Part shown: positions 13,391 to 49,584 of the stretch, one piece after another | Numbering within the stretch: position 1 is the stretch's first letter | Layout: the number at the start of each line of letters is the position of its first letter | Assembly: GCA_021234155.1 (NCBI GenBank) | Contig: JAJEKV010000101.1 | Location: 2,833,089-2,897,088 of the forward strand | From: Isoetes taiwanensis | Lineage: Eukaryota > Streptophyta > Lycopodiopsida > Isoetales > Isoetaceae | Direction of reading: 5' to 3' | DNA length: 64,000 nt | Position numbers and translations under genes: made by a program | The notes under the pieces: model-generated | What the model was told of the DNA's origin: nothing | What the model saw: only the letters and a program-made list of their open reading frames with translations | Databases searched by the model: none

Positions 13391-13395
13391 GTAGG

Positions 13396-13870
13396 CTGAA
13401 AAATCATCTTGAAAGATCTGGAGAAAAGGTTTTTCCTTCATATAGTCTTGAAAGACAGAGAGCATGATGCGCTGAAAGATTGAAAGAGAGTTTGATAGAC
13501 CAAAAGGGACTACCTTGTAGGCAAAAGTGCCCCACGGGGTGGTGAAGGTAGTTTTCAGTTGATCTTCTTTCTTGATAGAAATTTGATTGTACCCAGAGAA
13601 ACTATCCATGAAAGAGTACATCTCATGACCAGCAACTTCTTCAAGAACCTGGTCTGTGAAGGGAAGCGGAAAGTGATCACGCTCCGTAGCTTGATTGAGT
13701 TTTCTGTAGTCCACGCAAACGCGGATCTTACCATTGTGTTTGAGAGCTATGACGATGGGGCTCACCCATTCCAAGTGTTTGACCTCATAAATCAGGCCAG
13801 CAGCTAAGAGTTTGTCAATTTCGGCCTTGATGCGGTCACGGTAATTTGGGTTGAGCCTGTACTATCGTTG
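13396..13870 (-). pseudogene. gypsy reverse transcriptase, N-terminal part
   Basis: Minus-strand RT blocks are clear: VSPIVIALKHNGKIRVCVDY, KLNQAT, DHFPLPF, FMDSFSGYNQI, WGTFAYKVVPFGL and the catalytic FQDD. The frame is then broken by the nested element. In-frame stops just upstream (around 13858-13873) separate it from the protease frame. The remaining RT resumes at 6361 on the other side of the insertion. Confidence 0.9.
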
Positions 13871-24900: not shown

Positions 24901-25064
24901 TATAAGTAGCTAAGCACGTGAACATGCACTAAATGAACCCAAACCATGGGTTCTGAGGCCACTGGTCTCGGATGATTGCTGCAACCTAGCCTCTCGCACT
25001 TTACACAATTCCGTCGTCGCCTGGTCAGCTGGAAAGAGGGGAACGATGCGTTTTAAAATTATTT

Positions 25065-25930: not shown

Positions 25931-26523
25931 AAAATATGGAGTTTGAATTGTACAACATCTTCAGCTCTAATTATTAAGCACGATTTAATTAATTAGAGAA
26001 TTTCGGAATTCTCGTTGAGCATGAAATAGGTTCTTGGTTGTCTATAAAACACCGCAAGTGGTTGCAGTAGAGTAAAAGTTGACGGTTTTTTCGCTGTTTT
26101 TTGGTCACAACCAGTGATGTATCCGACTTTGACATGTATAAGGCTATCCCAAGCTCCTTTGTGAGTAAGAGCAGTCCACAAGAAAGAGTAAAAATACTCA
26201 GCAGGATCGCGATGGCGAAGATTTGAAGCTGCCTAGCTAGCCCATAGATATAATATCACAAGTCCGTTAAGGTCTACACATGGATAAAAAGAAATCAAAG
26301 TGATAATGAGGATCGTGGTGGCGAACATTTTGAGCTGTTAAGGTACCCAATAATTCTGCCAATAATTCTAAGAAAGTGCTAGCAAATATCGAGTGAAGGA
26401 AAGTTTAGACAAGAAACAAAACTCAAACAATAAGAAAACTCAAAGATGTGGAAAACTTCAAAGCATTGTAAGTTATATTCCTCAAACATTTCAATGTACA
26501 TTACTTTGCCAGAGGGGCAGAAA

Positions 26524-29500
26524 TTAGTCCATCTGGGTTTCTGATACTGACTCAGGTACAACACCTATCTCAGCAGCTATCCTAGCAACATGTTCCTGCC
26601 CCCTTTGTATAACCTCTGCTGTGTCCATCTCACTATAGCCTGTTACATCTGGGATGTCTACAGACATGGCCTGTGCAAGGACTTGGATATGTGGATCCGG
26701 TCCTTCAGTCTCAGTATCCATAGCGCTGCCTTCGACCGCTGCGCCACTCTGCACAGCACAGGCGATATCGGGTGCATGGAAGAGCTTCTGTTTCTTGGCT
26801 GGAACCTGATGCTCTTGTGTACCTGATGGCTCACCCTCTTGATCCGCAGGGTCCACGTCCATGCCTACGTATTCGAAACTCGACCCGCCTGTCAAGAAAG
26901 GCATGTAGGCATCAAATTTTTTGTTTAAAGCCCCCAATTTTTGAAACACGGGCTCTAGCGCAATAATACCTTTCTCAGTAGACTCCAGAAGTCTTTTCGT
27001 TTCCTGCATCCTTTCCTCATAGCTTTTCTCATCCATTTGATCCAAGATTTCATCAATTTTAGATATATCTGTTTTCTGGGTAATGTTTAAATTGATCTTG
27101 TCAGGATCATTTACAGGCTCTGCCTTCTCCTCTTCAACTGTCTCCCCAGTGCCCTGGCCAACCATTTTTTCGAGCTTATCCAGGAAAGCCCTCAAAAATC
27201 AGCATACTTTACCCTGGCTTTCGAAAGAAATACTTTTCTTTCTCTGCATTAAGGCGACACGGGAAGCAGTACCTGCTGAGAAGAAATCAAGGACACAACC
27301 ATCCTTGGGCACAAGCTTGTCAACTATGTAGTAAGCATATGATGTCTTCAACTGGCACTTCAGCACGTGATCACCTTCCATTCCGACAAACTTGTACCTG
27401 GGTTTACCCGTGAAGTAAGTCTGCCATTTTTTCTTCATTTTCTCATCAGTTTCTTCGTTACCAGTGACAGGCATTGGTGGCAAGGGGGTGTTCTTTGGTG
27501 CAGTGCTCACCTGTGTGAAATGAAGCTCCAGCTCCGGCATTATCGAGTTGACCCTGGAGTCGCTTCTGTTAATACACATATGGGTGATGTAATACTGATA
27601 TTCCTTCATCCTTTTCTTGTTCACCCATCCTGGCTCGTCCGATGTGCCTACTGAAATATGGGACCCGCTTTGAATCTGTTTTTGGCTGTACAAGCAATCT
27701 GGCAAGTTCACAGACCGCATCAGAATCACCAGGTGATAAATGTTAGCAGTTGTCATGCTGGATATTCTTGTGAAGAGTTCCATGTATTTTTTGCACGTCC
27801 ATAATGCAGAGAATCCTCTAATGTCTATGAACACCAAAGTTGCATTCTCAGATACTGGAGTGGAGGTAGGAATCCCTTCCTTTGTCACAGCATGTACAAC
27901 ATTTTTCTTCTCCTTGATTTTGATAGCCTCTTCAGGCTTCAAAATCGATCTAATGGGTTCTAGAAATGCAACGGGCAAATTACCCACAACATGATCCTTA
28001 TTATAATTGGCTTTCACGTACTCTGTATCCGAATCAGATATATCCAGAATCCGCTGTTCCGTGAAAGCAGGAAATTCAGAAAGCAATTCTTCCCAAAAAG
28101 TGTATTCTTTCTGAAGCAAGGTGGAAGCGTATGACAAAATCTCTTTCCGCATGAAAATCAAGCTTCTAATATCAATGGCGCACTGCTTGCAATCAAACCT
28201 GCCATGATATCCGGCTTGCACCTTAATGTATGTCTTTCCTTCCAAAATCTCATCAAGAAGTTGAGAAACCTCTGCATTAGACATGCCTCGAAGGTATCTT
28301 AACCAGGTTTTGTTGAAGAACTCCTTCGAGGGCTTATCAGGAAAATCTCCATGCTCATCACAGATTTTTTTGTTGACCCATTTGTTGGCCACTTCCATTA
28401 ATTTTCTGAAGACCCGCTCCTCCATAAAAATAAATTGTTTTTCGTCTTTTAGCTCCTTCACCTTCAATGTTGTGGTAGCTATCTCGTGGAAGTCCTACAA
28501 AACAAATGGTCAGGAAAATCGCGGCCGCGATGTTCATGAGCTAAGATAAGAAAAATACCTTCCATGCTGAGGTTGTAGCAGTACCAATGGGACCTTGCGG
28601 AGGACATCCATACGCCTTATGTTGATGCCGCAGCTGTTGAAGCTTCTCTAACAATGGCTCTCTATATACAGTGCTAGCAATGACTTCATTGCACTGAATG
28701 CTCAATTCAATATATTCTCTATCTGTCAAGTTTCTATTAAGCACTCTTGTTCTTCTCCTGGCGTAGGCTTTAGCAAACTCTAGCCGTTGTTCCAGCTCTC
28801 CAACAATACCGCAGAGCAATTGAGCTGCACATATACTGTGGTTACCAGATATTATCCAAAATTTCTTGCCCTTCAAATCAGCTTCTGTGCTCCACGTGAT
28901 CTTTTTCCTGAAATAATGTGCACTTATAAGTTAGGAAGCCACAAACCAGAAATGATGGACAATAACAATCACCTGGTAATGGGATCGAAGGGGACAACAT
29001 CGGCCGGTGTGAGCACCTCCGTAGGATATGTCTTGAAACTCTTCACGAGAGTCTGCACATGGTCGTTTGAACGCATTCGATGCGTGAGGTTAGCAGGAGC
29101 TGGCTCGCAATCAAAGATAGAGACTTTCATAAACCAGTTCACACCAAGCGGATAGAACCGTTTGAATTGTTCAAGCTTCTGTGCAGTTTGTTCTGCCAAT
29201 TTGCGTTCTTCCTCAGGATTGAATTTAAGCTCGGTCGGCAGTTCAGAAACGACGGGCCATATTAAGCTCTTCGACGATGAAACACCTGAGACGGAAGGGG
29301 GTGTGCGGGAAGAAGAAGGTTCTCCTGTCAGAAGTAGTCAGTTTGCGGAGGTTGATCGTGAACTTAGATATCTTACTTGGGACAGTAGTATGTGTCATCA
29401 CAATAGGGGGAGCACAAATAGCCAAAGGCTGAGTAGGAATAATAGCAGAAGGTTGGGCAGTGGCAACCAGCTCCAGACAGGGCTCTGGTGTGGGTAGAGT

Positions 29501-29567
29501 CCTCTGCTAAAGAAACGGGCTTTACATGCTTTTTCTTCGCCTGAGCTCTTAACCAGTTAGTGTTCAT
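26524..29567 (-). CDS. ParB-like / permuted DNA methyltransferase-like protein (copy 1)
   Basis: Proposed exons are 29567-29377, 29324-28973, 28907-28559 and 28494-26524. All introns are GT-AG, and phases agree across the last three. A ParB-like region spans exons 2-3 (MKVSIFDCEPAP, an R-rich helix, then ISGNHSICAAQLL and LTDREYIELS). In exon 4 a methyltransferase-like part follows: motif IV region NATLVFIDIRGF (about 27820), where copy 2 has DIPYGF, and motif I region VLDFFSAGTASRVAL (about 27270). An acidic tail ends the gene. An in-frame TGA at 27199-27201 splits exon 4, and exon 1 needs a 1-base frame change. Both catalytic motifs are degenerate, so enzyme activity is doubtful. Pseudogene or regulator are both possible. 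Confidence 0.65.
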
Positions 29568-29584
29568 TACCGAATATGGCTGCC

Positions 29585-30006
29585 ATTTTTTTTTTATAAG
29601 TTATTAGTACTGTCATCATATTGGAACAGGTCCATTTGGTTCAAAAAGCATGATAGAGCATGTATGGCTGCCATTTTTAATAAGTTATTAGCATTGTCAT
29701 CAGATAAGTGGAGCATGGAACAGGTCCATTTGGCTCAACTTTTTATCAACTTAAAGCTCCGTCTACATCTTTTATATCATTTTGTGTGATTCTTATCGTA
29801 AGTATATCAAGCAGATTCTTTATTGTTTCATTCAATTTTGAGATTTCACTTTCTTAAGAATGGCTATGTTCCTTAGGCCAGATGCAAGTATATGTGAGAT
29901 TTTTGTTCATATAAAATTTACCTCATCCATTTCCTTTTTCTAGGTCGCCATAATGTTTCTGGTGTACACCTTTGGGACATCTAGCAATTCGCTTCATGAG
30001 TATCAA
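29585..30006 (+). pseudogene. partial duplicate of the gene fragment at 35592-36033
   Basis: This stretch matches 35592-36033 in the same orientation, including the block around TAAGTTATTAGTACTGTCATC and the splice-like TTTTTCTAG before CATAATGTTTCTGG. The match stops at 30005, exactly where the long inverted repeat begins. The reading frame is broken by a T-run near 29590. Function unknown. Confidence 0.7.
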
Positions 30007-30060
30007 CTCTCCAAGATGATGACACTTTACTGGGATCATAAACGATATCATAAATTAGTT

Positions 30061-30086
30061 AAAAAAAAAAAAAAAAAAAAAAAAAC
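30061..30086. repeat. A-tract expanded in one arm of the inverted repeat
   Basis: The left arm has a run of about 24-26 A where the right arm has 8, so this homopolymer changed length after the arms formed. Confidence 0.85.
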
Positions 30087-30899
30087 TAGAAATCACTCTG
30101 TTTTTTCAGCACCCCATTGACGACATCCTCACCATGTACATGATTGCTCTATTAGTGCATTCTTTGACATGGCGGCAGTTATAATACATTACATGCACAA
30201 AGTGCAAAGCCATATTTTATAGCACAAAGCCAGCTCGGCAGAAAGATTTACTATTCAAAAGATTTGCTATTCAAGAGAGCGAGAACTAATGCTCCAGTGC
30301 TGGATTCAATCGATGCACAAGAATTAAGCAGTAAACTACAAACTCAGAGTAAAAGGTAAGCATATTTCCTAAAATATATTGAAAGCATATTTAGAATTTG
30401 TCCACTCATAAATATACTTATAAATCATAAATATACTTATAAATAAAACATATTTATTTTATTCTAAAATAAATATACTTATTTATAAGTATATTTATGA
30501 GTATACTTATTTAAATTCTTGTTTACACTTTATTTCTAAAAATATTTAGAATTCTTATTTATACTTTATTTAGAATTTTTATTTATACTTTATTTATCTA
30601 CACATATATAATCGAGACACACCAAGATTCGATTCCCAGATTCCTCAGATTCCTGGGTGGGGGAAAAAATCGTGAGGGAAAAATATACCTGCAAAAATTT
30701 CGAATGATGCCACGTTTTTGTCCTTATCCGGTTCGGAGAAATCCGCTCCGTCAATTCCGGTCATTTTTGGTAGGGAGGGCAACATCGCAGCAGATTAGAA
30801 GACTTCTGAGAACAAAAGGCAGGCCGCCAGCAGGGTTTTTCACCCTAATTCTCACAGTAACTCATACTGATTGTTTGGGTTAGAAGCATTCTCATTGCA

Positions 30900-32050
30900 A
30901 ATAGCTGGGCTTGGTTAGTTGATCGTTCTTAGTGTGCTGCAAGGTACTGTTTATTTTGCCTTTGATCTTGGTACCGGGCTTTGGATTGTGGCATTTCATT
31001 TGACACTCTTTATTTATATGCAGATTATGGGTCTCCTTGCAAAAATCGCTGGGCTCAGGGGCTGTTCTTTGTCCCCTGCTTTGGCCCCTTTTCTAGAAAT
31101 GCCCTGTTGGTCTGTTCCACAGTTCAGGGGGCACAGAAGTGGTCCGCATTCTTCCGCAGGTAAACTGTTGTTGAATGTGGCCGTAAAGTTGAATGATAAT
31201 CTTATTTCCTGCATGTGATCCAACACGGCAATGATAGTGCATCATTTATTCATGTCGGAACTGGCTATGGCGGTCTGCAGCAGAGAATGAAGAAGAAAAA
31301 ATGAGCAGTCAGATGTTCTGTTGGCCTGTTCTATTCGTTCACGACTATAAATTCATGGCAAATAGCTCCTCTGGATCAACTGCATGGTATACAAGATGAT
31401 TGCTGCTGCTGCAAGCAATCATCGGTCTATTATCAAGTATCTACTTCCTATCACAACGCGCGACAATGTAGAGCTATGGCCAAAGGCTTACCCCATTAAA
31501 CCTGCACGGCTTGGCCTCAGATATGAAGATACCCTTGCTTACCCGAAATTGGTTTATGTGCGGTGATTAGGGTATGAGCAAGGGTTACCCCATTACACAC
31601 CGCACGGCTTGGCCTCGGATATGAAGATGTTTGGTTGCATCTTTGAAGATGGTGTCCGGTCGCACCTGGTTTTTGGTTCGTCAAAAATGCAGACCCCAGG
31701 TCCAAGGTTAGATTTTTTTTTTTCTCGGTGCTGTAGAAGGGCAGTCCACCAAATCGGGCGATGCAAGAACAAAGGCGCAAGCCTTTGGCCTCTGATTTCA
31801 GGATAAACCAATTTCTCCTGGAAGGTTCTGAAGCGAGAACTACACAAGTAAAAGCAAGGCCACTGACGCCATAGATCAGCCCATTGATCCAATTTCCGAT
31901 CTCCATAGCCGAGGAAGCAAGAGCAGAGGGCTATTAAATCGATGTGCCAGCCGGCAGCCATGGCTGCGCCAATGGCAATGCTGATAACGGGTCCCGTAAT
32001 GCCCATCGGGCTATGTAACAAAAGTTTTGACAAATTTCTATTCTGTTTTC
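30900..32050. other. exon-like captured sequence inside the long-TIR element
   Basis: About 31000-31163 on the plus strand reads ADYGSPCKNRWAQGLFFVPC and then a splice-like CGCAG|GTAAAC. 31517-32033 on the minus strand has open but frame-shifted sequence (IGAAMAAGWHIDLIAL). A partial direct repeat of about 43 bp occurs at 31485-31531 and 31580-31627 (CACGGCTTGGCCTC). It may be captured host-gene sequence as in Pack-MULEs. I cannot identify the source gene. Confidence 0.3.
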
Positions 32051-33600
32051 AACCAGCAAGTCTTTAATTTTCATGCTTTATATGTTGGGTTTAGCACATA
32101 GAGATGCATATTATAGTTCTGTTGCTTTATTGAAATCTGTCATGTCCTTTTCCACAGATTGTAAAAATCGATACACATGTAATACATAAATATTTTCTTT
32201 CTTTTATATTATTTTTAAAATGACTTATATGATATAGGTGCACATTATATCCTTCTAGAGTAGAATATTTGCTAGCTTAAGTAGATACATTGCCCTGGCC
32301 TATCTTCAGCACACATGTCCTAGAAGGCCTTGCCCTTACTTCTAATGTGATATTGGCAAGCCGAGGTGCATATCCCCATCCCCAAGATAATAATTAAAAC
32401 TTATGGAAGGGGATATCAAACGAGGCGTTCCTTTCATGATGTGAATGATAATTGAATGACTTTTCTCTCTACGTTATGAGACAACATATTTGCGTTCTAA
32501 CTTTTCACTACTTTGTCATTTCTGGGTTGAGGCTCAAAATAGGAAAACAAACTTGGAAGTCATGGCCCTCTAAATGGGCCATAGTGAATCAAAATTTCTT
32601 TGCGTGTCATAAATATGCAACCTCTATGTCATAAATATGTTAGGTAGTTGTGGTCCTTTCCGTTGAAGAGAAATGTTCGCGGCGGCCTTGGCCGCCGCGA
32701 TAAATTTCTTGTAGGTATAAATTATACTTATTTAAGTATAAACTATATTTATTTATACTTACAATTTTTTGCCAATTATTTTTCTATTCCTAATTTTTTT
32801 CCCCACTCAGTAATCTAATGCATCGAATCTTAGGAATCTAGCAAAAATGATTTATATAAGAGTAGAAAAGGCTACCGCGGCAAAAATTCGAGAACGAAGA
32901 GCAGAGCTATGGCTCGAGGTTATGGTTATCGCGCATCATTTTTCATCAATTGCGCTCAACCAGGTAACCCGTCTAACTCCTCCAAAATCGTTTGTATGAG
33001 GAATCAGACCGTGACACAGGACCTTGCAACTGTAGCAATTTTTGGTGATGAACAATCTGTTTGTCTTTTGCAAAGTAATATTAGATGCTTTCTACATTAC
33101 ATGGTAAGCATTTTTTAAGCTTAAAACAATAGACTCTGTGGAATGATGAAAAAGATGTAGATCTGATCTTTGCACAATTTTGGATCCAAGAATGTGTGCT
33201 AGATGGCATGAGATTTTCCAGTTCTTTGACCTTACTTATATTCACAATTTGACTGGTAGATTAAATTGGAATGTACACCCCATTTTTTATCTTCAGAATG
33301 TGCAACACTAGAATATATTTTGCATTGCGGAGTGCTAAATTAATATATACATCATATAATCATCCTTCTCTGATGTGTTCCCAAAGCCATCTCTACATGC
33401 TGCAGCCATTGTAATGCTTTACACATTGTAACATTAGATAATTAATGAAGTAAAACAAGGTTCAGCACATTTGCAATTCAAGATTCAACACATTTGCAAT
33501 TCAAGCATTGATCTCTGTTGCTCTTCTGCTCTCTTCCATAGTTTCTTTATACATGTCCATAGTCAGCCTATGTTGTTTCTCTTCCTGTATTTGCCACCTT
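32051..33600. other. interior of the long-TIR element, one small plus-strand ORF
   Basis: Most of this is AT-rich without structure. A 69-residue frame at 32909-33118 opens MARGYGYRASFF and ends at a possible splice donor (ATG|GTAAGC). Its sequence is not recognised and it may be chance. Confidence 0.25.
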
Positions 33601-33875
33601 TCTTTCTTTCTTTCTACAAGTAAAAATATAAACTTATAATTATAAATTATAAGATTTATAAGTATAATTTATACTTAAAATATAAGTATATACTTATAAA
33701 TAAAGTATAAATTTATACTTTATACTTAAATAAGTATAAATTTATAATTTATACTTAAATAAATTTGTATTTGTAATTTATACTTATAAATAAAGTATAA
33801 ATAAGTATAATTTATACTTAAATAAGTATAATCTATACTTAAATAAATTTATACTTATAAATAAAATATAAATAA
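33601..33875. repeat. AT-rich satellite-like stretch
   Basis: Interleaved words ATACTTAAATAAGTATAA and TTATAAATAAAGTATAAAT repeat irregularly. They are strongly self-complementary, resemble the AT-rich inner ends of both terminal repeats (about 30430-30600), and could form cruciforms. Confidence 0.7.
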
Positions 33876-34795
33876 GGGTAGTTTCCCACTCGTAATTAGG
33901 TTAGGTTAACTTAACCAGTTGGTTATCTCTTAACTTAATGGAAAGTAGGTTGTGATTTCCCATTAAAGTCATCAAGTTAAGACTAACTTAAAGGATTGTG
34001 AAAATATGCATTCGCACTATACCATTTATGGACCACTTAGGTTAAGCTCATGAAATCAACTTAACCTAACCTTTATAATAAGCTTGTGCTTCACACTAGT
34101 AGTTAAGAAGTTTTGTTAGGTTAGAGATAAATGTGTTCGTTTCTCACTTCAGTTAAAAGATACGGTTAAGTTAAATGGAGGATATGACTTTTTTTGTCGA
34201 GTTACTATTTTTGTGAATTGTTTGACTACCTAGTAAAATCTAGTAAAGTGGTTGACTCTCTAGTCAATGAGTTGACTTTTTGTTAACTTAGACAATTTCT
34301 CGCCAATAAATTGTCTTGTAGTCAACTCTTTCCATTTTAATACTTTCTAGTCAAGTACTACGTGACCAGTTAATCAATCGTAGAATTCTTAAAACCCACC
34401 TCCCATTTTAATGTTTTTTATTCAATCTATCAAACTAATAAGACACTTGGTCAACTAGCTGGCATCCTTGTTAAAATTATGATTTAAGAGTCTAACCTAA
34501 CTGGAACTATTTCTCACTCATAGTTAAGTTAGCTTAATGCTTAACCAAAAAGTTAGAAGTTAAGTGGACCTTGCTTAGGTCACTTAACTTTTGCACTAGT
34601 TGGTTAAATATTTTAAAATTTGGTTAAAAAAATAACTTAACTTTTTCTAGTGAGAAGGATGCTCAGTTAAGTTAACGAACAGTTAAAAATTAACTGGAAT
34701 TAACTTAACTGGTATTAACTTAAGGGTCAGTGGGAAAGCAAGTTCCAGTTATTTTCCCTATTTAACTTAACTTAATGGCAAGTGGGAAATGATCC
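33876..34795. mobile_element. 920-bp PIF/Harbinger-like MITE
   Basis: The ends are inverted: GGGTAGTTTCCCACT at 33876 and AGTGGGAAATGATCC ending at 34795. They continue imperfectly into ATTA-GTTA-GTTAA words. TAA flanks both sides (33873-33875 and 34796-34798), the 3-bp duplication typical of PIF/Harbinger. It has no coding capacity. It sits directly against the right arm of the long-TIR element, so it inserted later. Confidence 0.7.
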
Positions 34796-35326
34796 TAAGA
34801 ATTCTAAATAGATATACTCATAAATATACTTATAAATAAGTATATTTATTTTAGAATAAAATGAATATGCTTTATTTATAATTTATAAGTATGTTTATTA
34901 GTGGACAAATTCTAAATATGCTTTCAGTATATTTTAGGAAATATGGTTACCCTTTTCTGTACTCTGAGTTTGTCGTTCACTACTTAATTCTCGTGCATCG
35001 ATTGAATCCAGCACTGGAGCAATAGTACTCGCTCTCTTGAATAACTCTCTTGAATAGCAAATCTTTTGAATAGTAAATCTTTCTGCCGACCCATGGCTCC
35101 ACATTTTTTATAAAATATGGTTTTGTGCTATAAAATATTGCTTTGTTCTTTGTGCATGTAATGTATTATAGCTGCGGCCGTGTCAAAGAACGCACTAATA
35201 GAGCAATCATGTACACGTTGAGGATGTCTTCAATGGGGTGCTGAAAAAACAGAGTGATTTCTAGTTTTTTTTAACTAATTTATGATATCCTTTATGATCC
35301 CAGTAAAGTATCATCATCTTGAAGAG

Positions 35327-36262
35327 GCCATAAAATCAGTAATCCTTTATTGCCAGGAATTGTGCACCAAAAGCTTGTTAGTCCTGCAGTTAGAAAGCAC
35401 ATAATGCAAGTTGTAAGAGAGGTTCATGGGCTTCATCAGAAGGATTGTGTGAGATCTTTGATAAAGATCATGGTGTGATAGGCCCAAAACCAAAGGTAAA
35501 CAAGATTTATTTTCATTTACTTTTAAGTCATATTATCCCTTTCAGTGGCGAGGAACACATTTCTTTTGTTTTAGGTCACATGTGGTTCCAGCAATAAAGA
35601 GCATGATAGAGCATGTATGGATGCCGTTTTTAATAAGTTATTAGTACTATCATCAGATTGGAACAAGTCCATTTGGCTCAAAGAGCATAATAGAGCATGT
35701 ATGGCTGCCATTTTTAATAAGTTATTAGTACTGTCATCAGATAAGTGGAGCATGGAACATGTCCATTTGGCTCAACTTTTCATCAACTTAAAGCTCCGTC
35801 TCAACCTTTTATATCATTTTGTGTGATTCTTATTGTAAGTATATCAAGCAGATTCTTTATTGTTTGATTCAATTTTGAGATTTCACTTTCTTAAGAATGG
35901 CTATGTTCCTTAGGCCAGATGCAAGTATATGTGAGTTTTTTGTTCATATAAAATTTACCTCATCCATTTCCTTTTCCTAGGTTGCCATAATGTTTCTGGT
36001 GTACACCTTTGGGACATTCAGCAGTTCACTTCATGAGTATCATGGAGCAGAACATTTATTTAACAATGTTTTTTTTAAGTTTCTTGGATATGTTCATGAA
36101 AAATACTGTGCTGATATATTGCATCCTAATCACTATTCAATTTTATACTATCCATTTCACAATGCTAATCACATCTGTCCCTCTGGATTTAGTCTATGCC
36201 CTCAAATGGGGGACATGGTAAACCACACATGGCTATGGGATACATTACCTGGAAAATGATTT
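35327..36262 (+). pseudogene. unidentified spliced gene fragment with an internal exon duplication
   Basis: Coding-like segments alternate with GT-AG-like introns: 35370-35480 (VSPAVRKHIMQVVREVHGLH), 35575-35826 and 35983-36259. The middle segment holds two tandem copies of one motif (RACMDAVFNKLLVLSSD, RACMAAIFNKLLVLSSD). Part of it recurs at 29585-30006. The first segment faintly recalls a protein-kinase catalytic region, but no catalytic motif is convincing. Function unknown, probably decayed. Confidence 0.35.
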
Positions 36263-36317
36263 ACAAATGCCTCATGATGATGTTGATGAAGATAACAAAG
36301 CCATAACAAGAATGCCA

Positions 36318-36345
36318 CGGTTCTATTGCGATAGCAATAGAACCG
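36318..36345. repeat. perfect 12-bp inverted repeat with 4-base loop
   Basis: CGGTTCTATTGC, loop GATA, then its exact complement. Partly paired flanks (AATG and CATT) extend it. It lies upstream of a TATA-like CTATTTATTT at about 36381. It could be a small hairpin RNA, a protein site, or a chance palindrome. Confidence 0.85.
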
Positions 36346-36349
36346 ACAT

Positions 36350-39300: not shown

Positions 39301-39422
39301 TTTGGTTGTCTTTTCACACTTTGTCATTTAGCCTTTCTGAGGACTGCATCCACCACTGCATCTGGTCCCATTTTTGTTCTGGTCTTTATTGTGGATATTG
39401 ATTATTTCTTCATTTTTACATG
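36350..39422. other. T-rich, strand-asymmetric sequence without a supportable gene
   Basis: The plus strand is strongly T-rich with few A-rich stretches. Open frames are numerous but Phe/Leu/Ser/Cys-rich, as T-rich sequence produces by chance. It has the look of a long intron or the untranslated interior of a transposon. The first 300 bp could be a promoter/5' leader (CTATTTATTT, then ATG at about 36671), but nothing supports a product. Confidence 0.4.
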
Positions 39423-39614
39423 TTGGCCTATTATTGCACTGACGTTCTTGTTGTGTTCGCTTTGCAGACGTTGTTTGATGATCTGTATTAGGCACATGGT
39501 TCACTTTATTGTTGCATATTGGCCTATTATTGCACTGACGTTCTTGTTGTGTTCGCTCTGCAGACGTTGTTTGATGATCTGTATTAGGCACATGGTTCAC
39601 TTTGTTGTTGCATA
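39423..39614. repeat. 96-bp tandem duplication
   Basis: 39423-39518 and 39519-39614 are nearly identical, each running from TTGGCCTATTATTGC to GTTCACTTT.TTGTTGCATA. Only a couple of bases differ, so the duplication is recent. Confidence 0.9.
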
Positions 39615-40490
39615 TATTTCACGTTCTCCAGCATGAAATGATGCATTTTGGATTTTGGTAATCTTGGCATTCTGGTTGCATCTTGGGTTTGCAAACTTTA
39701 ATCTTTGTTTTAGCTTTTTGTTGCTCGCTACTTGAACTTTTCGGATTTCTCTAGGGAATTGAATTTAATTTGTGCACCTTTTGGGCTATTATGCATCGTA
39801 GAGGATATCTTTGCTTCCATTGGCTTATCTCAGCCCGTGGTATTTCCTTTAGTTATTTTTTTCTACTATCTTGGCTCTTCTCTTTCTTAGTGTTCTATTA
39901 TTGCATTTGCACCTCCAAGATCTTTAGTTCCAGTTGGCTCCTTTAGGTCTTTGCCACATTAGTCCTTTCCCTCTGTTCCTCTCTATCTTCTTGGTTTTTT
40001 GTACTTCATTCATTCCCTTCCTTCTATTATTGTTTTATTTTCATTGCTTCTTGTGGTCCATTTTATATTCTATTAGCCCTTCGCTTCCCACTGTTTCTTT
40101 CTACTAACATGTTTATTGCAGCTGCTCCTTCTATCTTGTTTATGAGAGCTATCGGATGGGCATATTTGCCCTTTATTCTAAGATCTGGACCGTACATAGC
40201 GATCCTCGTTTGTGGGGTATGCATGTACAAGTTTTTGTATACTGTATATTAAGGTTTGCAAAATACTATAAGGTTTGAGAGAATGTACTTAATGGTGTTA
40301 ATTTTGTACGTGTATTGTAAATTTTTTGAGGCTCTCGCTGCCCTACGTAACCCCCCGTGTGAATATGCACCCAAACCAAAGGGGGTTTAAGGGGGATTTT
40401 AATTTAAATGTGTCAAATGCAATGGTTTGTGTTAATAATGTTAGTTGTGTGTTAATGGTTTGTGTTAACTAAAAAAAATTTTGGCCCCTT

Positions 40491-40607
40491 CGGGGCATAA
40501 GGATGGTGTAGGGGATGTTAGCTGTGTGTTAATAGTTTGTGTTGGTAGCATGTTCGGGGAATAAGGATGGTGTAGGGGATGTTAGTTGTGTTGTGTTGGT
40601 AGCATGT
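40491..40607. repeat. 64-bp tandem repeat, nearly two copies
   Basis: The CGGGG.ATAAGGATGGTGTAG unit begins at 40491 and 40555 and includes GTTGGTAGCATGT. A short palindrome, GCCCCTTCGGGGC, lies at the left edge. Confidence 0.8.
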
Positions 40608-43100
40608 AATAATAGAATTTATTAATAATGAACAAACAGTTAAATCCTCGTTGTTTTTTCTCCAAGTTATTCCTTCACATATATCGTACAAAATATAACA
40701 AGTATACGTTCAAAATACATAATTGTATTATTATTATATTCCAACCAAAAAACACTTGCTTAATAACAAATGAAGTTGAGGTGTTTCACCACTGAGCATT
40801 TCTATATGAGAGTCCGCTTATTGTTAGATTTCATGATTTGATGAAAAAGATATGAAGAGAAGCTGCAAAACAATACTTGGTATTTTAGGAAATCATTGCT
40901 TGGAGAGGAAGAGATTCAATATTTGTGGGCTCCCTATGTCAAAGAACATCATGAAATTAATATTTCATACAAATAACTAAGAACATCATGAAATCATTAT
41001 TTCATACAAATAACTTGCAGAAAAATGGCAAATACCTGGAATGCAATACATGAATCTAGTACCCAAGTGTTGGTGCTGAATATGTCATCATTGCAAGAAA
41101 CGGGCTTAATCCTTGACGTAAACAACTTTCATGCGACCCCTTTCAATGTTTAGAGTGTTTCGTCGATGCACTTACATTTCAAAGATAAACTTGCACATGT
41201 TTTCTTTTCCGAGTTTGTAAATGAGAACCATGCATGAATGCTTCAAAGTGACCACAAACAAAAGTTATCATGGTTCTTATTTGTGCTACAATAAAGCTTA
41301 AGAAAGCAAATGCAAAGAATCCCTGCTATGACAGCCGGAATTCACAGAATTCCAGCTGCAATAAGACATAGAGATATGCTAACACATTTGCAGAGCAAGT
41401 TTAGAAAGGACCAAAGCATAAGAAGACATGTTTTTTTCACCCTTGCAAGTCGTTTTGTCTATTGTGCATGTTAAATTCACATTGCATGTTGAATTCATGC
41501 TTCAATTCTTCTCGCAACAACACGCTTTGATGGAGCAAGCAACTAAATCGGGCGATTCACTAGAAAAGCCAAAGCTGCCGGTGTAGCCAACATAAAAAAA
41601 TTAACCCGGCTATTTCTAGATTCCAGAGAGATATATTGTGTATTTGTGCACTATTCATGCAAAATTAGAGAGTCTTAGGAACATGTTACCTCTTTCCATA
41701 GCTTCCGCCAACAATCCTTGCCACACCATATTTTATAAAGTCCGGTCCCTGTTCATTCTTGCAAACCTTTACTCAGATTCACTTTCGGGGAGAAGGAAAA
41801 CATGACGAACTTGGCTATGATGCCGTGAGTCTCATGACTTCCATCTCAGAAGACAAGCCACTCCTCCCATGAAGTTTACATTTCCCTGAATTTTCCCCTG
41901 TTCATCACCTCTCCTAGTATCCTTTCCGGACTTTCGAAATGAATAAGTAGCTCATTAGCATTCTTAGGGCAGAGTTACTTAATTTTAGTACACTAGCCGC
42001 ATCTTGCTCATAAGCCAATTGAAGCCCGGCCCCGAAAGTGCCAGTCTACATCTACTTTTTGTTTCGGTGTGCTCTATCACTTTACCTTACAATCTGCATA
42101 ACAAGTCTACTTAAGATCTTGGCTTGCCTTTATTATGCAAAGAATAATAAAGGCATAATAAAGGCTTCATCCTATTGTCTTGCATCATTGCAAAAATAAT
42201 TGATGCAATGGCTATGGCTCGTGGAGCTCGGCCAGACCGCAATTTTGTTCCCCGAAAGGTGTAAGGTAGCGGATGTCAAAAGTGTGCTTCTCCTATTGCA
42301 AGATATTTCTATTATTCAGCCTACTCTGGAGGCCCTTGTTTTTCAGAGAAGCAACCAAAGGCATCGCTTAGATTCTGTTGGTTTCCAAAGGTTTCTAGAG
42401 ATAGCATGCTGCTTGCATACGAGTATTGAGATATAAGGGAAAGAATTTAAATCATATGCTTTAGATAACAAGTTTGCTGAGGAACATTTTTAGAAAACTT
42501 GGGATGCTTACTTACCATTTGAAGACTCAAAGAGGAGAGAATTGGCGGATCGAGGAGATGAGCTCCACGCCTACCTGAAGCCCTATGGCTACTCCAATGA
42601 TTTGAAAATACTTGCTTTCTTTCTCCAACGCGTTTCTTACGCAACCTAGGGCCTTGTCCATGATCTGGAACCTTCTGAAGGGCCATCAACGCAAAACTCG
42701 GGAGGTAGGGTTTTCCGGAACAGAGAAAACTGGGGAGGTTTTTGGCAAGGCTTTTCCGGAACGCCTAATCCCTTTAAATTTTGCGAAAAGCAGGGTCTAT
42801 TAAGTAAATAGTACAACAACGCTTTTTTTTGGGGGGACATAACACTCCACCCAATAAAATTTAGAGGACAATTCACAGGAAAAAGCAATAAGAAATTTCA
42901 TGCACAAGACATGCCAAATCTGTTGTGAACATGCAAGGAAGTACAATCATGACCACATGATTTACTTTTGATAAAAAAATCAACGGTCGAGAAAGAGTGC
43001 ACTCTAGAAATACTATTCAGTACACTTGCACGAATACAACCACCAAATCATAGGAAAACCATATGAAAAAACGTATAAAAACTTAAAAACAACCCCCTGT
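40608..43100. other. no gene recognised
   Basis: AT-rich and unremarkable. Open frames at 42200-42436 and 42612-42803 lack motifs or splice context that I can support. No RNA gene or repeat is visible. Confidence 0.35.
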
Positions 43101-45090
43101 TATTATGCTAGATATTTCCATTTGCTTTATGGGCCATATTTGTACTCAATTTTGTTCTTCTGGTTTGTTTATTTGCACCCTTGGCCTGTTTACGCCTAAT
43201 TTGCTGGAGTCTTATCTTCTCCCTTTTTTGCTTCATACGGCTCGCTTTTAGTGTCTAGTTAGTTTCGTCAGCATTTTAGCATCTAGCTATTTTTGTAAGT
43301 AGTTGTCTTGCTTTCTCCCATTTTTCTTCTGTTCCTACTCGCTCTAGTTACTTGGTCATTTCATGAATTTTTTCATATCTATCTAGGTTTTAGTTAGCTT
43401 TTTATTTCATGAGTTCCATCCCTTCTTGAGCTTTTCTTATCCAGGACTGTCTCATCCACGACTCTCCTTTCTTGGGCACCTTTTAGTCATGCTTAATATC
43501 CTTGAGAGGTTCTGCTTTTAAATTAATTCTTTGTTGGGGGGACGCATTGGTTGCCGTTGTACGCAGTTAGATGATTGTTTTTGTCTAGCGATACGATTGT
43601 CTTGCCTCTATTTTTGCTCGTCCTTCAGTTGTTTGGATGTGCTTTATATTCAGTTTGCTTCTATTGGCCTTGATGCTCTCATTTAATATGCATTATTTGG
43701 CATTTTTTTTATAGCTATGATTCATCTAGCACATATTATTGCTGTCCTTACAAGTTAGATGTAGCTCTTTATTCATGTGTGCTTGATTTTAGCTATAGTA
43801 GCAGTTGTTATTGTCATTTTTGGTGTTGCAGTCATTGGTTATCATTATTTTTTGCCTTATAAGGTTAATATTTTTGTCGGTTTTCTCTGTTGTCGTCTCA
43901 TCATCTCTTGCGACCTCATTTCTTACTGCATTATTTTTCATCTTATGGGTTCCTTTTGTTTCAGGTGTTCTATCGGTTGGCCATTTAGTTTCAATTGACC
44001 CATTTGCTCAATCTAACCTTTGCCTCGTTACTTTTTATGTTTTATTCTCCATCTCAATTCTCCCTGGAGCCCCATTGACTTCTATATTTTCATCCTCCAT
44101 TCCACTAATCCCTTTGGCTTCTATCCTTTATATTTTAGAGCCCCTCTTCATTGCATCCATTCTATCTTAGTGTTTACATCTTTCTTCTCCTTTCATTCTG
44201 TTATTCTTGGTGCTCTTTGGTTTCATAGTTGATTATTAGTTATGCTTTGTTGCTTTGTGGTCTTATCTCATGTAACTTGGCTCCGTCAAGTTTATACTCA
44301 GTTTGTTCTGTCATTATTCGTTTGCGAGGTTTTTCTCATTGCCTTGGTAACCCTTTAGCTTTCTTGCTCAGTCCATCCTGTTTGCCATGCTCCATCCAAG
44401 TTCGTCTTGTCGGTTTTTGGTCCAAATTTGTCCCTTTAGCCTCCTATTGCTTTAGCACTTTAGCTTGTTCTTTATCCCACTTAGTTTTGGTCATAGCTTC
44501 AGTTTATCTCATTTGCCCTTTAGGCTGTGTCTTTTTTCTTCGCATCTTGTCCCCTGTTCTTCATTTCCTTTTTCTTATTTGCTCCTTTAATCTATTCTCT
44601 GTTTTTCTCTATTACCCCCTTTTATTCTCTTCGTTTTGTCTTTTAGGACGACATCATAGTCGCATCGTTTTTCTCCATTCATTCCTTTTATTCTTTGGCG
44701 CTCTTTCGTTTGTATGGTTGGTTGCCAGATATGCTTTGGGGTCTTATCTCATGTGAGTTGGCTTTGTTAGGTTATATTCAATCTACTTTGTCCTTATTTG
44801 TTTAGTTTGTCTGCGACGTTTTCATTGCCTCGGTAACCCGTTAGCTTTCTTACTCAGTTCAACTTGTTTGACATGTTTGATCCGAGTTTTTCTTGTCATT
44901 TTTTGTTTCAAATTTGTACCATCAACTCCCTTTTGCTTTAGCATTTCTTGTCGGTCTTAATCTTTCGTCCCACTTATTTTATGTTTCTACTTTGTGTATT
45001 TGGTTTGTTCAGTCGTGTTTTCTCCTTTTCTCTCACGTATGTCACGTAAATCTTTGTCTTCACTGCTTTGTATGGGTATGCTGAACCCGC
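43101..45090. other. second T-rich, strand-asymmetric block
   Basis: It resembles 36350-40200 in base skew and vocabulary (TTTGCTC, CCCATTT, GTTTGTT), but I cannot align the two by eye. Long open frames such as 44229-44756 are very hydrophobic, as expected of T-rich chance translation. Confidence 0.4.
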
Positions 45091-45270
45091 CTCGAGGCAA
45101 TAATGAAAGATTCGCAGACGGAGATAAAAAACTTTTTCTTGAGTGGCTGCCGTCCATGCTGCAAATGGACAAAGACCTGTACTCAGAAACAGACATGCAC
45201 CACACCTACTGTGCATGTACTAAGTAAGGAAGTACACTAACTAATTAAAATAGTATTAGTAGCAGCTTGC

Positions 45271-45325
45271 CTATGAGCGCATAGCCCGGGTGTAAGATGA
45301 ACTCTTATTGCCCATGCGCGCATAG
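45271..45325. repeat. palindrome pair upstream of copy 2 (41-bp spacing)
   Basis: CTATGAGCGCATAG at 45271 and CCATGCGCGCATAG at 45312 each have one mismatch to CTATGCGCGCATAG. Their starts are 41 bp apart, as in the intron clusters. They lie about 250 bp upstream of the proposed TATA box. Confidence 0.85.
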
Positions 45326-45569
45326 ACAAGATGTCATAAATTACTGTGAGAGATAAGCCTGTTACCTACTTGAGCACAGGGAAGACGTAATAATAAAGTC
45401 TATAGCTCAAGCGACGGAAGACAAGATAAGATAAACAACTGTAAAGGAAGAGCGGGAAATACGAAGAGACTTTGTGTGGGCTTGACACTCCATAAAGGAT
45501 CGCATGAAATGACACGCTACACTCTTCGTGTATAATCTCATAGAAAATATCCAAGTACTAACGTAGACA

Positions 45570-45577
45570 ATAAATAG
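45570..45577 (+). promoter_or_regulatory. TATA-like box of copy 2
   Basis: ATAAATAG about 30 bp before a plausible transcript start near 45600 and 124 bp before the proposed start codon at 45701. Confidence 0.4.
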
Positions 45578-45892
45578 GGAAAAAGGGCGCACATTTCTGC
45601 ATACAGACCGAAGCTCCTGGGCGCTCGACCTCCGCCTTCACACTCAGTCCGCTTTTTTTACATATCGAAGTCTATAAGAAGCTGCATAGACTCGCGGCAA
45701 ATGGCAGGTGGAAGGTACATCAAGATCTTAGCTGCTAGTTAATTAGCTCACCCTTTTTTTTTTGTGCATTATTTGCTTAATTAGGCTGCCTCCAAAACGA
45801 TTAAAAATGTCAATTTCTTAAGTATTTCTGGCCTTCTTCCTGTATTCTAGATATGTTTTGTTTGTTTTAGGTCATTTTGTGATTGGGTTTGT

Positions 45893-46187
45893 CTATGCGT
45901 GCATGAGAACAATGGTGTTTTTAGTGCTTGTCCTTTTAGCCTATGCGCGCATAGACACAAATCTTTTTTCTTAAGCTTAGCCTATGCGCGCATAGACACA
46001 AATCTTTTTTCGTAAGCTTTGCCTATGCGCGCATAGACACAAAGCTTTTTTTCTCAAGCTTGACTATGCGCGCATGGGCTTCAGCCTTTTTTTTAATCTG
46101 ATCCTATGCGCGCATGGGCATAACACTTTTACTAAAGGTCGCCTATGGGGATAAGATTTTCTGAATTGGTTGGCTATGCGCGCAAAG
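45893..46187. repeat. intron-1 array of the CTATGCGCGCATAG palindrome
   Basis: Exact copies start at 45941, 45982 and 46023. One-mismatch copies start at 46064, 46104 and 46174, and weaker ones at 45893 and 46143. Start-to-start spacing from 45941 is 41, 41, 41 and 40 bp. Within the array the intervening sequence is also related (ACACAAATCTTTTTT), so part is a true 41-bp tandem repeat. Confidence 0.95.
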
Positions 46188-47801
46188 TTTTAATACCTTA
46201 CTATTTTTAATATTTCAGTAAGAAGAGAAACCTTGCACGGGGTAGCCAGGATGATGAAGGTGGATCCTCCCAGAAGGCAGCCAGGAAGAGGAGGACGACG
46301 AAGGACAAGAGTCAGGATGCAGTTCTGGCTCCAAGTCAGCAACAATTTCAGGAGGCCGAAGATGGCTCCCATTTTTGTAAGGATCAACAGTGGTTGCTTG
46401 TCAGGGGTACCGGTGATCTAGCAACTGCGCATTTTTTGTATTTGTACATTTGTTCTGAGACCGGCAAGCAAACACAAGACCTGGAAAGCTTCAGAAGATG
46501 TGACAGGCTCGTGGATGTTGGTCTGTTTGGTATGTTCCACATCAAGTGCACAACCACCACCAAGGGCAGTGAACATGTATATTCCGTGGATAGTTCATTT
46601 TTTAAGCTGAGTTTGTCTTCTCTAGAAGATATGCAAGGCTACATTCAGGCAAGAATGAAGAGTAAAATTGTAAGTGTTATTTTCCTGCACGAGAAGACTT
46701 TACCAACGTGTTTGGTCTATGACATCATAGGTTTTATTTGCAGGATCTTCTTTCTATACTAAAGGATCTTCTTTTGAACAAGGATGCTCTGTTAAGTTCT
46801 AGCGCACCTCCTGCTAAGCTGCTGGGATGCCATGCCTCAAGTTGCCAAGCTAATCATCCCCAGAATCTCAGAAACTGTTGAGGTGGCAACATTGGATGAA
46901 GATGAACCTTCGGATCCCGAATCTGAAGAGGAAGAGTTTGAGGTTGAAGTGGTGGAGAGGCCAAAAAAAAAGAAAGCCAAAAGAAATTATTACAAGGCAG
47001 GCCTGGTGACTGACACTGCTCCACCAACTAGCAAGGCATCAAGAAAAGCCACTAAGGTAGTTTTGCCTCCAGCACCGGGTACAAGGATTGCCAGTAAGGA
47101 AAAAGACATGGCTTCTAGGAAGCTCGAAGAAATTGAGCTGAGATGTCGTGTGCCTGGGATCATGCACCTGCAGGTTGATTGTGTTAAGTTGTGCCCAAAG
47201 GATGAGTCTGGTGAGAGACCTTTGCAGGTGAGGAAAATTTACTCTGGTCATTTGTTTGCTCTTAAGGAACGTATAAGGGACAGACCAAATGCAGCTACAG
47301 CACCGGACATTTGCATTGTTGACCCTTCCCAGTGCACGGAAAGGGATTTGTTTGTAAAGGAAGAGGATGAAAGCTACATGTAGTTTGTTTTGGGTGGCAT
47401 TCACAGCTTTAAGGCGAGGAGGCAGCTTTTTAAAGAAACTAAAGAACACTGCTTCTCTCAAATATTTGCATTTGTTTACGTGGGTGTCACTGACTCTGAA
47501 GCCAAGTTGCTTGCCATGAGCCACAATGTGGACAATGAATATCGGATGAGCATGAGCTTCACTGACAAAATTAAGTTTATGCATAAGGAATACGAGCTTT
47601 TTAGGTCGGAGCATAAGGGTGACAAAGGTATAAAGGATGATCAAAACCTTTATCTGGCTCTTAAAGAGCAGTGTGCTACAGAGTGCTGCTTAACATACAA
47701 CTCCACTGATGCCAGAGCATCTCTTGTGAAGTACGACAACTACTTCCAACTAGCTTTTAGGCATGGACGTGTAAGATAACTTTCTTCTCCAAGTTCTTTG
47801 A

Positions 47802-47815
47802 CCATGCGCGCATAG
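47802..47815. repeat. single palindrome in intron 3
   Basis: CCATGCGCGCATAG, one mismatch to the consensus, between exon 3 and exon 4 of copy 2. Confidence 0.85.
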
Positions 47816-48347
47816 CTGTTCAGTTTTCTTACCTTTATTTCTTTCTTGTTCCTTTTTAGGTCTGGGAGCTTCAAGAAAAAAAATTTGATATGTTTGCTGA
47901 GGGTACACTAAAATCCAAAGGAAAGGTGAAGGATCCAAAAAGAAAAAAAACTGAACCTGCAAAACAGAATGACATGGGTATCATGGTCTGGAGGGAAATG
48001 CAGGGTTTAGAAAATACAGAAAAAGTTTGTGAGGTGCTACAGAAGGTGGTCAATGGCCACTTTACCTTGGAGGAGATGCAGGGTGAATTCAAACAGTAAG
48101 TTAAATTCCTGATCCAAAACACTAGCCAGTTCTTGTTGGTAGTTTACGTTCTAGAGTTTTTTAAGACTCCTTACTTTTGCAGCCAAAAGGATTGTGCACT
48201 CTGTCAGCAGCAACTCATGGTCCACCTTAACTGTGACACATTGGAAAAAGTTAAAGAATTATACCCTACTTGGTCGTCGGATGAAAAGATAAACCAATAC
48301 GCTTCGAATTTCACGAACTGGGTAAAATTTGTTGTTCCCCTACTTAT

Positions 48348-48575
48348 CTTGTTGTGTGCCTATGCGCGCATAGCACTACAAGAAGTCCGTTACTGTGGTG
48401 CTATGCGCGCATAGGCTGACACTCGGAACTTTTGTTTTCTTCTTCTTACTAAAGCTGTTTTCTTGTTGTGTGGCTATGTGCGCATAGCACCACAAGAAGT
48501 CCGTTACTGTGTTGCTATGCGCGCATAGGAAGAAACTTTGCACTTTCGTCTTCTTGTTCTTACTAAAGCTGTGTT
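48348..48575. repeat. 114-bp tandem duplication in intron 5 with four palindromes
   Basis: 48348-48461 and 48462-48575 are two copies of one unit, each with two palindromes. These are at 48360 and 48401 (both exact), and at 48474 (one mismatch) and 48515 (exact). Starts are 41 bp apart within each copy. The sequence between the palindromes (CACTACAAGAAGTCCG) differs from that of intron 1. Confidence 0.92.
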
Positions 48576-49037
48576 CTGTGGTTTTAGAAAAATAAGGACC
48601 CGATGACGCCAGGGTTTCTTAACATGGTTAGACTTGCTAAGGAAGAGCGCGCCAAGCTAAAGAAGAAGGAAGAAGCTGAGCAAAGTTTTGTACCAACAGA
48701 ATTTGAAAGGTTTGACATGTTTGGTCAGAATTGTTTATACCAAATATATCATGGAAATTGTGTCAAACTTGACCATACATTGAAATCTGGCAATTATTCG
48801 TTGTGTATTGCTGATATTCCTTATGGGTTCAAGCTACCTGATAGTCGAGGAGATGATTCTCCATTTACTTATGCTGAATTTGATTCTTTCTTGAGTCGTT
48901 TCGTCAAAATAAATACTGCACCGCTTTGGAGGATAATAGTTTTTCATTCAAGTAATCAGGCAGGTGGTACAAGCTGCAATGAGAGAGCACTGCAAAGCTG
49001 GTTACAAGCCAGCCATTTGGTAAGTTATTTCTTTTTG

Positions 49038-49051
49038 CTATGCGCGCATAG
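49038..49051. repeat. palindrome in intron 6
   Basis: An exact CTATGCGCGCATAG lying in the short intron between exon 6 and exon 7 of copy 2. A weaker form, AAGTGCGCGCATAG, occurs at 49772 downstream of the gene. Confidence 0.9.
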
Positions 49052-49584
49052 CACACAATAACTCATTGGTTGCGGTTGCAGGTTGAAGACGAATGTAAGA
49101 GGAAATGGCGGTGGTGCAAGGCTTATAAATGTTTGGGAACGGATGCACATTGGTTACCACATCATTGCGAGAAGCATTTTGCACTATAATCGGGCTTTGG
49201 AATGGATTTCACGCGCGTTTCAATTCCCCAGCCATTCAGAAATTAATGTAGACCAGTACACCGTGGTCGTGATAGTCAATCCCTATCAAAAGCCTCAATG
49301 ACTTATTAATACCCTTTTAGAGATGTTTTCACGGCCGGTGGCCGGGTCGTCGATGCCTTTCGTGGTCGGGGACCACCTTGGCGTGTGCTTTAAAAAAAGG
49401 GTCGCGAAGCGCCTTTGTAATTGATTTTGATAAGGATTACGTGGTTTATATAAAATCGAATAAGTTCTCGACGACCTCCCCGGATGAGCGAACCAGGAGG
49501 TTGGCCTTAAGGATAAGGATGGTAATCCATGCCTTCAAGCTCGAGCCTTTGCCGCCACTCAACGGGAACACCAACGATCCGTAG

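Follow-up and report, generated by a model that had tools for sequence, protein, structure and literature searches.

Among described mobile elements, the closest to the genes considered here is Sola1-1_Ec32 of the brown alga Ectocarpus, reported in 2025, in which a gene encoding a ParB-like region and an N4-cytosine/N6-adenine (N4C/N6A) DNA methylase lies opposite the Sola1 transposase, and for which self-modification has already been proposed (PMC12477816). Relatives in green and red algae are cited in the same paper (Iyer et al. 2011; Petroll et al. 2025; PMC12477816). The present analysis concerns a 64,000-nucleotide stretch of the Isoetes taiwanensis genome, hereafter the window (C910:2833089-2897088), and two genes within it, copy 1 and copy 2, which are the decayed right-hand ends of two DNA-transposon families (families 1 and 2) dispersed in a land-plant genome with an assembly of 1.66 Gb. 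Because such a gene is already published for Ectocarpus, with precedents in green and red algae, the present case is a land-plant example of something already known. The likeness to Sola1-1_Ec32 lies in a DNA transposon with a ParB-like plus N4C/N6A methylase gene on the opposite strand (PMC12477816). The algal element, however, is 21.5 kb long, with 2 intact among 1989 Sola-1 copies (PMC12477816), whereas the elements described here measure 9-10 kb, and unlike the Ectocarpus case they occur in a land plant, whose genome holds at least three such families, among them one with a degenerate methylase, and they carry palindromes particular to each family; neither palindrom nor iteron is found as a word in the main text of the Ectocarpus paper (PMC12477816). 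Taken as a whole, the locus is probably explained by two families of DNA transposons of the cut-and-paste kind, characterized by 4-bp target-site duplications (TSDs), short terminal inverted repeats (TIRs) and a transposase-like DUF7869 gene, that carry on the opposite strand a spliced gene for a ParB-like region joined to a permuted N6/N4 amino-methyltransferase, whose product would read palindromes and thereby mark the element as self.

Full-length relatives of the window copies are about 10 kb (family 1) and about 9 kb (family 2), and both families are numerous. The 431-residue exon of copy 1 has at least 99 matches in the genome (97 of 5415 first-look candidates scored) and copy 2 at least 150 (150 of 2007 candidates scored), many of the listed copies of both families containing stops. 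A matching left end and 4-bp duplications were found in the DNA upstream of three family-1 copies, and one family-2 copy gives the same picture. With at most one mismatch, the family-1 TIR AAGCACGATTTNATTAATTRGAGAA occurs 285 times in forward and 296 times in reverse orientation (581 ends), and the family-2 TIR AACAAGGTGACGGTGCAAACGCACTAATGAC occurs 85 times in each (170 ends); the reversed-pattern control gave 0 for both. The first 100 listed family-1 ends include 35 inverted pairs within 30 kb, all of which join a left-type to a right-type end and 27 of which span 9.8-12.0 kb. Among 20 family-1 pairs picked for length near 10 kb, 18 are flanked by an exact 4-bp TSD and none by a longer one (the misses are L103/L104 and L127/L128), as are all 10 family-2 pairs examined, one of which (L148) shares a flank with the C1018 copy and is perhaps not independent. 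Bao and colleagues reportedly found in 2009 that Sola transposons make 4-bp target duplications, and the TIRs and 4-bp TSDs observed here are Sola1-like, a likeness in the structure of the element ends.

These ends bear directly on what the window genes are. A preliminary description, made from the letters of the window, had taken them for two captured genes of a multi-copy and possibly mobile family; copy number and mobility are borne out by the genome counts, TIRs and exact TSDs, but the genes are remnants of two transposon families with a DUF7869 partner on the other strand. That they are instead domesticated plant methylase/ParB genes lying among repeats by chance would accord with their splicing and plant host, yet at many sites the shared sequence breaks off at TIRs with TSDs beside them, and the copies are therefore not host genes; this alternative is refuted for the window copies and retains next to no probability. 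Truncation at the 5' end in the manner of a long interspersed nuclear element (LINE), an idea that came from the constant 3' end and varied 5' ends, was ruled out by the matching left TIR. Nor is the contig chimeric, as the preliminary description had allowed it might be, since the same element ends recur at hundreds of places in the genome.

Some insertion pairs share a flank, namely L103/L104 with L111/L112 (C31, C103), and L148/L149 (C987) with the C1018 copy of L046; these are perhaps duplicated segments or alternative haplotype contigs. Short derivatives also exist, and TSDs flank all six from family 2 (2.1-3.0 kb, two sharing flanks) and both from family 1 (0.6 and 4.6 kb). The smaller of the latter, L172 (C952:12216859-12217484), is a deletion derivative with intact TIRs and the TSD TAAA, and resembles a miniature inverted-repeat transposable element.

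The partner gene of the full-length relatives lies on the opposite strand and matches Pfam DUF7869 (E=3.6e-37 in family 1, 5.6e-41 in family 2); the pattern LDNxSxxNKN...GHTH within it, identified by eye, is taken for a DDE-type core. At least 18 pairs of a copy-2-type methylase and a DUF7869 gene lie within 20 kb of each other, against 0.54 expected, among 150 matches listed for each, those for DUF7869 coming from 9902 first-look candidates. Orientation is divergent in 17 of the 18 listed pairs and spacing is 4.9-6.2 kb in 12, and the same divergent arrangement is found in family 1 and in families 2 and 3. Many of the listed DUF7869 genes have no adjoining methylase among the matches listed. 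With a ParB-like region and a methylase on the strand opposite the transposase, the accessory gene is of the algal type, its ParB half being recognized through profile comparison only.

Neither window copy is intact, in contrast to the preliminary description. Copy 1 is truncated at its 5' side and carries a frame change and a TGA, and its features are as follows.

25976-29574, minus strand: copy 1, right-hand part of a family-1 transposon, delimited by the ends of homology with other loci
25976-26000 (C910:2859064-2859088), plus strand: right TIR of family 1, AAGCACGATTTAATTAATTAGAGAA, perfect and among the TIR matches
26524-28494, minus strand: exon C, a degenerate methylase with DIRG at the motif IV position, then motif I (DFFSAGT), then the C-terminal part
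28495-28558, minus strand: intron 2
28518-28531, no strand: perfect palindrome ATCGCGGCCGCGAT inside intron 2
28559-28907, minus strand: exon B, encoding the latter half of the ParB-like region and its SGNHS block
28908-28972, minus strand: intron 1
28973-29574, minus strand: exon A remnant with a frame change, its 3' part being the first half of the ParB-like region

At the right boundary 24 of 29 other family-1 loci stop aligning at window 25969-25978. At the opposite boundary the alignment of 16 of the 29 ends at 29570-29574, where relatives continue and the window copy does not; missing from it are the 5' part of the accessory gene beyond 29574, which relatives possess, and the entire transposase side. 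The frame change in exon A shows as two overlapping open frames (29243-29506 and 28969-29337), and exon C has an in-frame TGA at 27199-27201, a position that in the 29 other loci is Arg (20), stop (2), His (2) or deleted or frame-shifted (5). A pair of repeats about 94% identical occupies window 29590-29994 and 35627-36031, such that copy 1 ends beside a repeat recurring 6 kb away, and fragments that by eye are LINE reverse transcriptase adjoin its right end (24990-25809, plus strand).

Copy 2 has likewise decayed, through a TAG and a disrupted motif-I exon.

45042-50016, plus strand: copy 2, a family-2 transposon remnant that has lost its left side, including most of the transposase gene
45271-46187: eight palindromes like CTATGCGCGCATAG in two clusters, at most one mismatch, mostly 40-41 bp apart (starts 45271, 45312; 45941, 45982, 46023, 46064, 46104, 46174)
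46211-46762, plus strand: N-terminal exon region of the accessory gene, without assigned function
47105-47773, plus strand: ParB-like region with the GGIHS block, broken by a TAG at 47381-47383
47802-49051: six further CTATGCGCGCATAG sites, read as lying in introns (starts 47802, 48360, 48401, 48474, 48515, 49038)
48588-49019, plus strand: methylase exon with motif IV (ADIPYG), phrog_67 E=0.0027
49082-49584, plus strand: methylase exon with motif I, frame disrupted here and open in L054 and L053
49986-50016 (C910:2883074-2883104), minus strand: right TIR of family 2, a perfect match to AACAAGGTGACGGTGCAAACGCACTAATGAC

The left limit of copy 2 is set by the alignment of L046:7355, which starts at window 45042, and the right limit falls at 50016/50017 in 9 of 11 other family-2 loci. 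The TAG precedes the G-x-H-S block, and the relative L046 reads through it. An N-terminal region ahead of the ParB-like region is by eye common to families 2 and 3 (L054:4716-5141, L053:2358-2800, window 46211-46762), and it has no Pfam match in the exons scanned.

As an observation the preliminary description is partly confirmed, and its interpretation is partly supported. The G-x-H-S blocks, DIRGF, DIPYGF and the later motif-I-like blocks lie where it had placed them. Both genes do look spliced: in family 1 the GT-AG introns measure about 65 nt, with a few loci departing from this in either direction, and are at the same places in 30 compared loci, individual sites having decayed, and in copy 2 splice signals are present as read by eye. 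The nuclear genome of a plant was likewise correctly named. The LOB family is not known outside streptophytes, and given 28 LOB/LBD exon matches in the assembly, with none in 14 control genomes (prokaryotes, as far as named), the host is taken as a land plant. A ParB-like region followed by a methylase is supported as well, copy 1 belonging to a family with a degenerate motif IV. A profile search had been proposed; in it the window pieces are weak, the exon of copy 1 alone reaching 15.5 bits against Pfam N6_N4_Mtase (E=0.017, below the cut-off of 26.7), while relatives of copy 2 with open frames score 64.8 (L054) and 66.2 bits (L053).

Those open relatives are, by profile match and motif order, clear N6/N4 DNA methylases. 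They match phrog_67 (2.1e-22 for L054, 3e-20 for L053), L054 matches CcrM, RsrI and MboIIA in the PDB, and motif IV, D[IL]PYG, comes ahead of FSGSGTT, the permuted (beta) order that had been claimed for the window genes. A motif IV of D[IL]PY, taken as a tolerated variant of (D/N/S)-P-P-aromatic and present in viral-contig methylases too, fits an active amino-methyltransferase. Such activity is predicted for families 2 and 3; across the motif-IV exon family 3 shares about half of its residues with copy 2. The proline-aromatic pair of motif IV is absent from family 1 (0 of 30 loci, L001-L030), which has at that position D-I/V/F-R-G or a one-letter variant, with a gap in L025 and DMRS in L050. 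The relationship of the two domains is nonetheless recovered by hhalign (E=1.4e-4 in one comparison, a score reached by 0 of 100 column shuffles), which sets ADIPYG of family 2 opposite IDMRSF of L050. To judge from these alignments, DIRGF of copy 1 is not a functional motif IV, the catalytic motif having been lost in family 1. No prokaryotic relatives were found in a scan of genome contigs, and the matches in phage and viral contigs are distant, mostly 21-27% identical over longer matches and at most 54% over short ones.

Some of these viral-contig proteins are themselves fusions of a ParB_N-like region and an N6_N4_Mtase domain (L065 and L067, probably phages). Their domains follow in the order seen in the plant proteins, and their motif IV is of the same variant, ADLPYG; AD[LI]PYG is found in viral-contig methylases too. 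They differ in that the methylase is about 25% identical and the gene has no intron. ParB_N similarity ahead of the methylase was seen in two of four viral-contig proteins scanned, at 24.2 and 18.4 bits (cut-off 26.3; E=3.5e-05 and 0.0023). Over 113 columns, the corresponding region of families 2 and 3 can be aligned with the ParB regions of four ParB-methylases from viral contigs (E=0.0059 in one comparison), and for family 2 none of 100 column shuffles reaches the observed score. Family 1 joins this set through family 2 only, there being no direct viral match; none of 100 shuffles is as good as its comparison with family 2, by a narrow margin (23.6 versus a best shuffle of 22.6). This region of the accessory gene is likely ParB-like, to the extent that profile comparison can indicate.

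Each family also has its own palindrome in noncoding DNA. The family-2 palindrome CTATGCGCGCATAG, with at most two mismatches, has 19 sites in L046, 9 in L033 and 14 in the window, where none falls outside 45042-50016; runs are spaced 40-41 bp, and the family-3 palindrome GTATTCCGGAATAC has 18 sites in L053, in runs 41-42 bp apart. Exact copies number 1551 and 3720 genome-wide, against 0 for either reversed pattern and a rough expectation from base composition of fewer than 10 for each. In family 1 the palindrome is ATCGCGGCCGCGAT, with a variable centre, found with at most two mismatches 7 times in L043, 6 in L044, 2 in L045, 6 in L050 and 7 in L051, part of the sites forming a 34-bp series. 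The motifs do not cross families in the pieces searched: GTATTCCGGAATAC has no site in L046, L054 or the window, CTATGCGCGCATAG none in L052 or L053, and ATCGCGGCCGCGAT none in L046 or L053. Sites located by eye fall within introns, in the stretch that separates the divergent genes, or close to the element ends. In two arrays of L053 (15 units, no mismatch filter), conservation is 92% in the palindrome columns, 89% in the six flanking columns on each side and 51% in the farther spacer, with pairing at 91 of 105 inner and 77 of 90 arm positions; units 1822 and 1861 fit the 14-mer poorly, seemingly by a one-base length difference, and unit 4119 has several arm bases changed symmetrically on both sides. 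For intron 2 of family 1, conservation is 96% across the 14 palindrome columns and 78% across 37 other columns, and 23 of 30 aligned copies carry exact ATCGCGGCCGCGAT. Near-palindromic 14-mers reach 3.6-4.6 per kb in families 2 and 3. Family-specific arrays in noncoding DNA are thus clear in families 2 and 3 and sparse in family 1; an earlier idea, that palindromes occur only in methylase-active families, was dropped once ATCGCGGCCGCGAT turned up in family 1.

How the parts might work together can be put as follows. The ParB-like domain would recognize the family-specific palindromes repeated within its own element, in introns, between genes and in subterminal DNA. The methylase of families 2 and 3 would then write N6-methyladenine (6mA) or N4-methylcytosine (4mC) on the element. 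The methyl mark would stand for self, such that the element could escape or counteract host silencing, or that its own genes and transposase could act on it. In family 1, where the methylase fold appears to be kept under selection with the catalytic motif lost, the protein probably works by binding alone. A comparison suggests itself with the VANC proteins of Arabidopsis VANDAL elements, whose targets are short tandem-repeated motifs in introns and noncoding DNA that differ between families (PMC5735166). Both cases involve a protein encoded by a transposable element and family-specific motif arrays in that element's noncoding DNA, but VANC contains DUF1985/DUF287 and causes loss of methylation (PMC5735166), whereas the protein here has a bacterial-type methylase, and neither DUF1985 nor DUF287 has a match in the exons scanned by Pfam. 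The palindromes thus hint at a self-recognition or anti-silencing system that works at most like VANC, without being a member of that group. Put forward more tentatively is the specific proposal that these are land-plant transposons in which a ParB-derived domain reads a palindrome array, a code like parS replaced as families diverge, and a methylase writes 6mA/4mC against silencing, one lineage having become a pure reader with a pseudo-methylase.

The palindromes might have a different reader. The subterminal motifs of En/Spm are transposase binding sites, and the main rival account, which is rather unlikely, holds that the arrays here are transposase binding sites too and that the ParB-methylase modifies them to regulate transposition, not to fight silencing. 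The presence of sites close to the left end and ahead of the transposase reading frame (L046 4077, 4140, 7584, 7625) would suit it, as would the weak resemblance of the family-1 transposase to HTH_23 (E about 0.02); many sites, however, lie deep within introns. The short derivatives cut both ways, for all six of family 2 that were examined retain 5-9 sites, in favour of the rival, whereas the two of family 1 moved, to judge by their intact TSDs, with 0 family-1 palindrome sites in either.

Constraint on the accessory gene is supported by substitution ratios. In family 1, nonsynonymous to synonymous rates (dN/dS) are 0.08-0.38 in the nine pairs with measurable dS of the 22 compared, the other 13 being synonymously saturated with dN 0.16-0.31. 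Of the 22 family-2 pairs compared, 20 have dN/dS of 0.25 or less. In family 3, the 147-codon motif-IV exon shows 2-6 synonymous and 0 nonsynonymous differences among four copies of equal or near-equal protein score. All of these figures are skewed downward because copies were chosen by protein score, the family-3 figure most and the deep saturated pairs less, and dN/dS of the family-3 motif-I exon is mostly meaningless owing to frame shifts in L052 and L144. With that sampling caveat, family 1 appears to be under purifying selection despite its lost motif IV. An accessory gene captured once and carried passively would explain the stops in many listed copies, and the excess of DUF7869 candidates (9902) over methylase candidates (5415 and 2007) implies that many DUF7869 elements may lack it; but low dN/dS in families 1 and 2, conserved introns and the same divergent arrangement in families 1, 2 and 3 make a mere passenger very improbable.

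Several results weigh against self-marking through the palindromes. ParB_N (PF02195) has no match over its curated cut-off in the genome searched exon by exon, nor in the exons scanned, so that the ParB part of the preliminary description has profile support in family 2, and narrowly through it in family 1, with no match to the Pfam domain itself. When the family-1 region is compared with the viral ParB set, 38 of 100 shuffles score as well as it does; the ParB-like region modelled without an alignment reaches a predicted local distance difference test (pLDDT) value of 39.9, too low to be informative about the fold; and the family-2/3 ParB alignment, searched as a profile against the PDB, gave chance-level matches only. 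Family-1 palindromes are few, 2-7 per piece examined, where no perfect palindrome is repeated three times and near-palindromic 14-mers, at 1.7-2.6 per kb versus 2.2 in the rest of the window, are not raised. Two of the 22 family-2 pairs have dN/dS of 0.50 and 1.26, and the choice of copies by protein score lowers dN throughout. To these are added the palindrome sites kept by the short family-2 derivatives and the transposase as alternative reader; the ParB domain is a proposed reader of the palindromes. The signs of mobility, the gene pair, the catalytic motifs and the palindromes are shown, whereas binding of palindromes by that domain, modification of the element by the methylase, and protection from silencing or control of transposition as the result are inferred.

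Eukaryotic elements and genomes with bacterial- or viral-type DNA-modifying enzymes include KDZ elements with TET/JBP, DIRS elements with Dam, retrotransposons with C5 methylases, and bdelloids with N4CMT; in all of these the enzymes and transposition machinery differ from those described here. As far as the searches show, what is new is a conserved methylase-dead lineage together with the family-specific palindromes CTATGCGCGCATAG, GTATTCCGGAATAC and ATCGCGGCCGCGAT. No further papers on ParB-methylase transposons were found in the open-licence PMC literature, and others may exist. If the self-marking account is true, N4/N6 DNA modification in a land plant would be in the hands of its transposons. 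Related families with and without the catalytic motif, each with its own palindrome, offer a natural experiment. Should the ParB-like domain indeed read the palindromes, a second, independently evolved sequence-specific counter-silencing system would stand beside VANC, in the form of a modular reader/writer pair.

Other putative genes and repeats lie in the remainder of the window. Directly to the right of copy 2 is a possible host gene (50054-50302 and 50490-51164, minus strand), whose first piece resembles by eye the start of an FCP1/NIF-type phosphatase (DLNGVL). A 545-residue open frame at 983-2620 (minus strand) has the look of a piggyBac-type transposase, and Ty3/Gypsy-like gag/pol fragments, also recognized by eye, lie at 4337-6394, 8018-8863 and 13334-15064 on mixed strands. 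Window segments 6367-7026 and 12805-13390 also match DNA adjoining the transposon copies L008 and L019.

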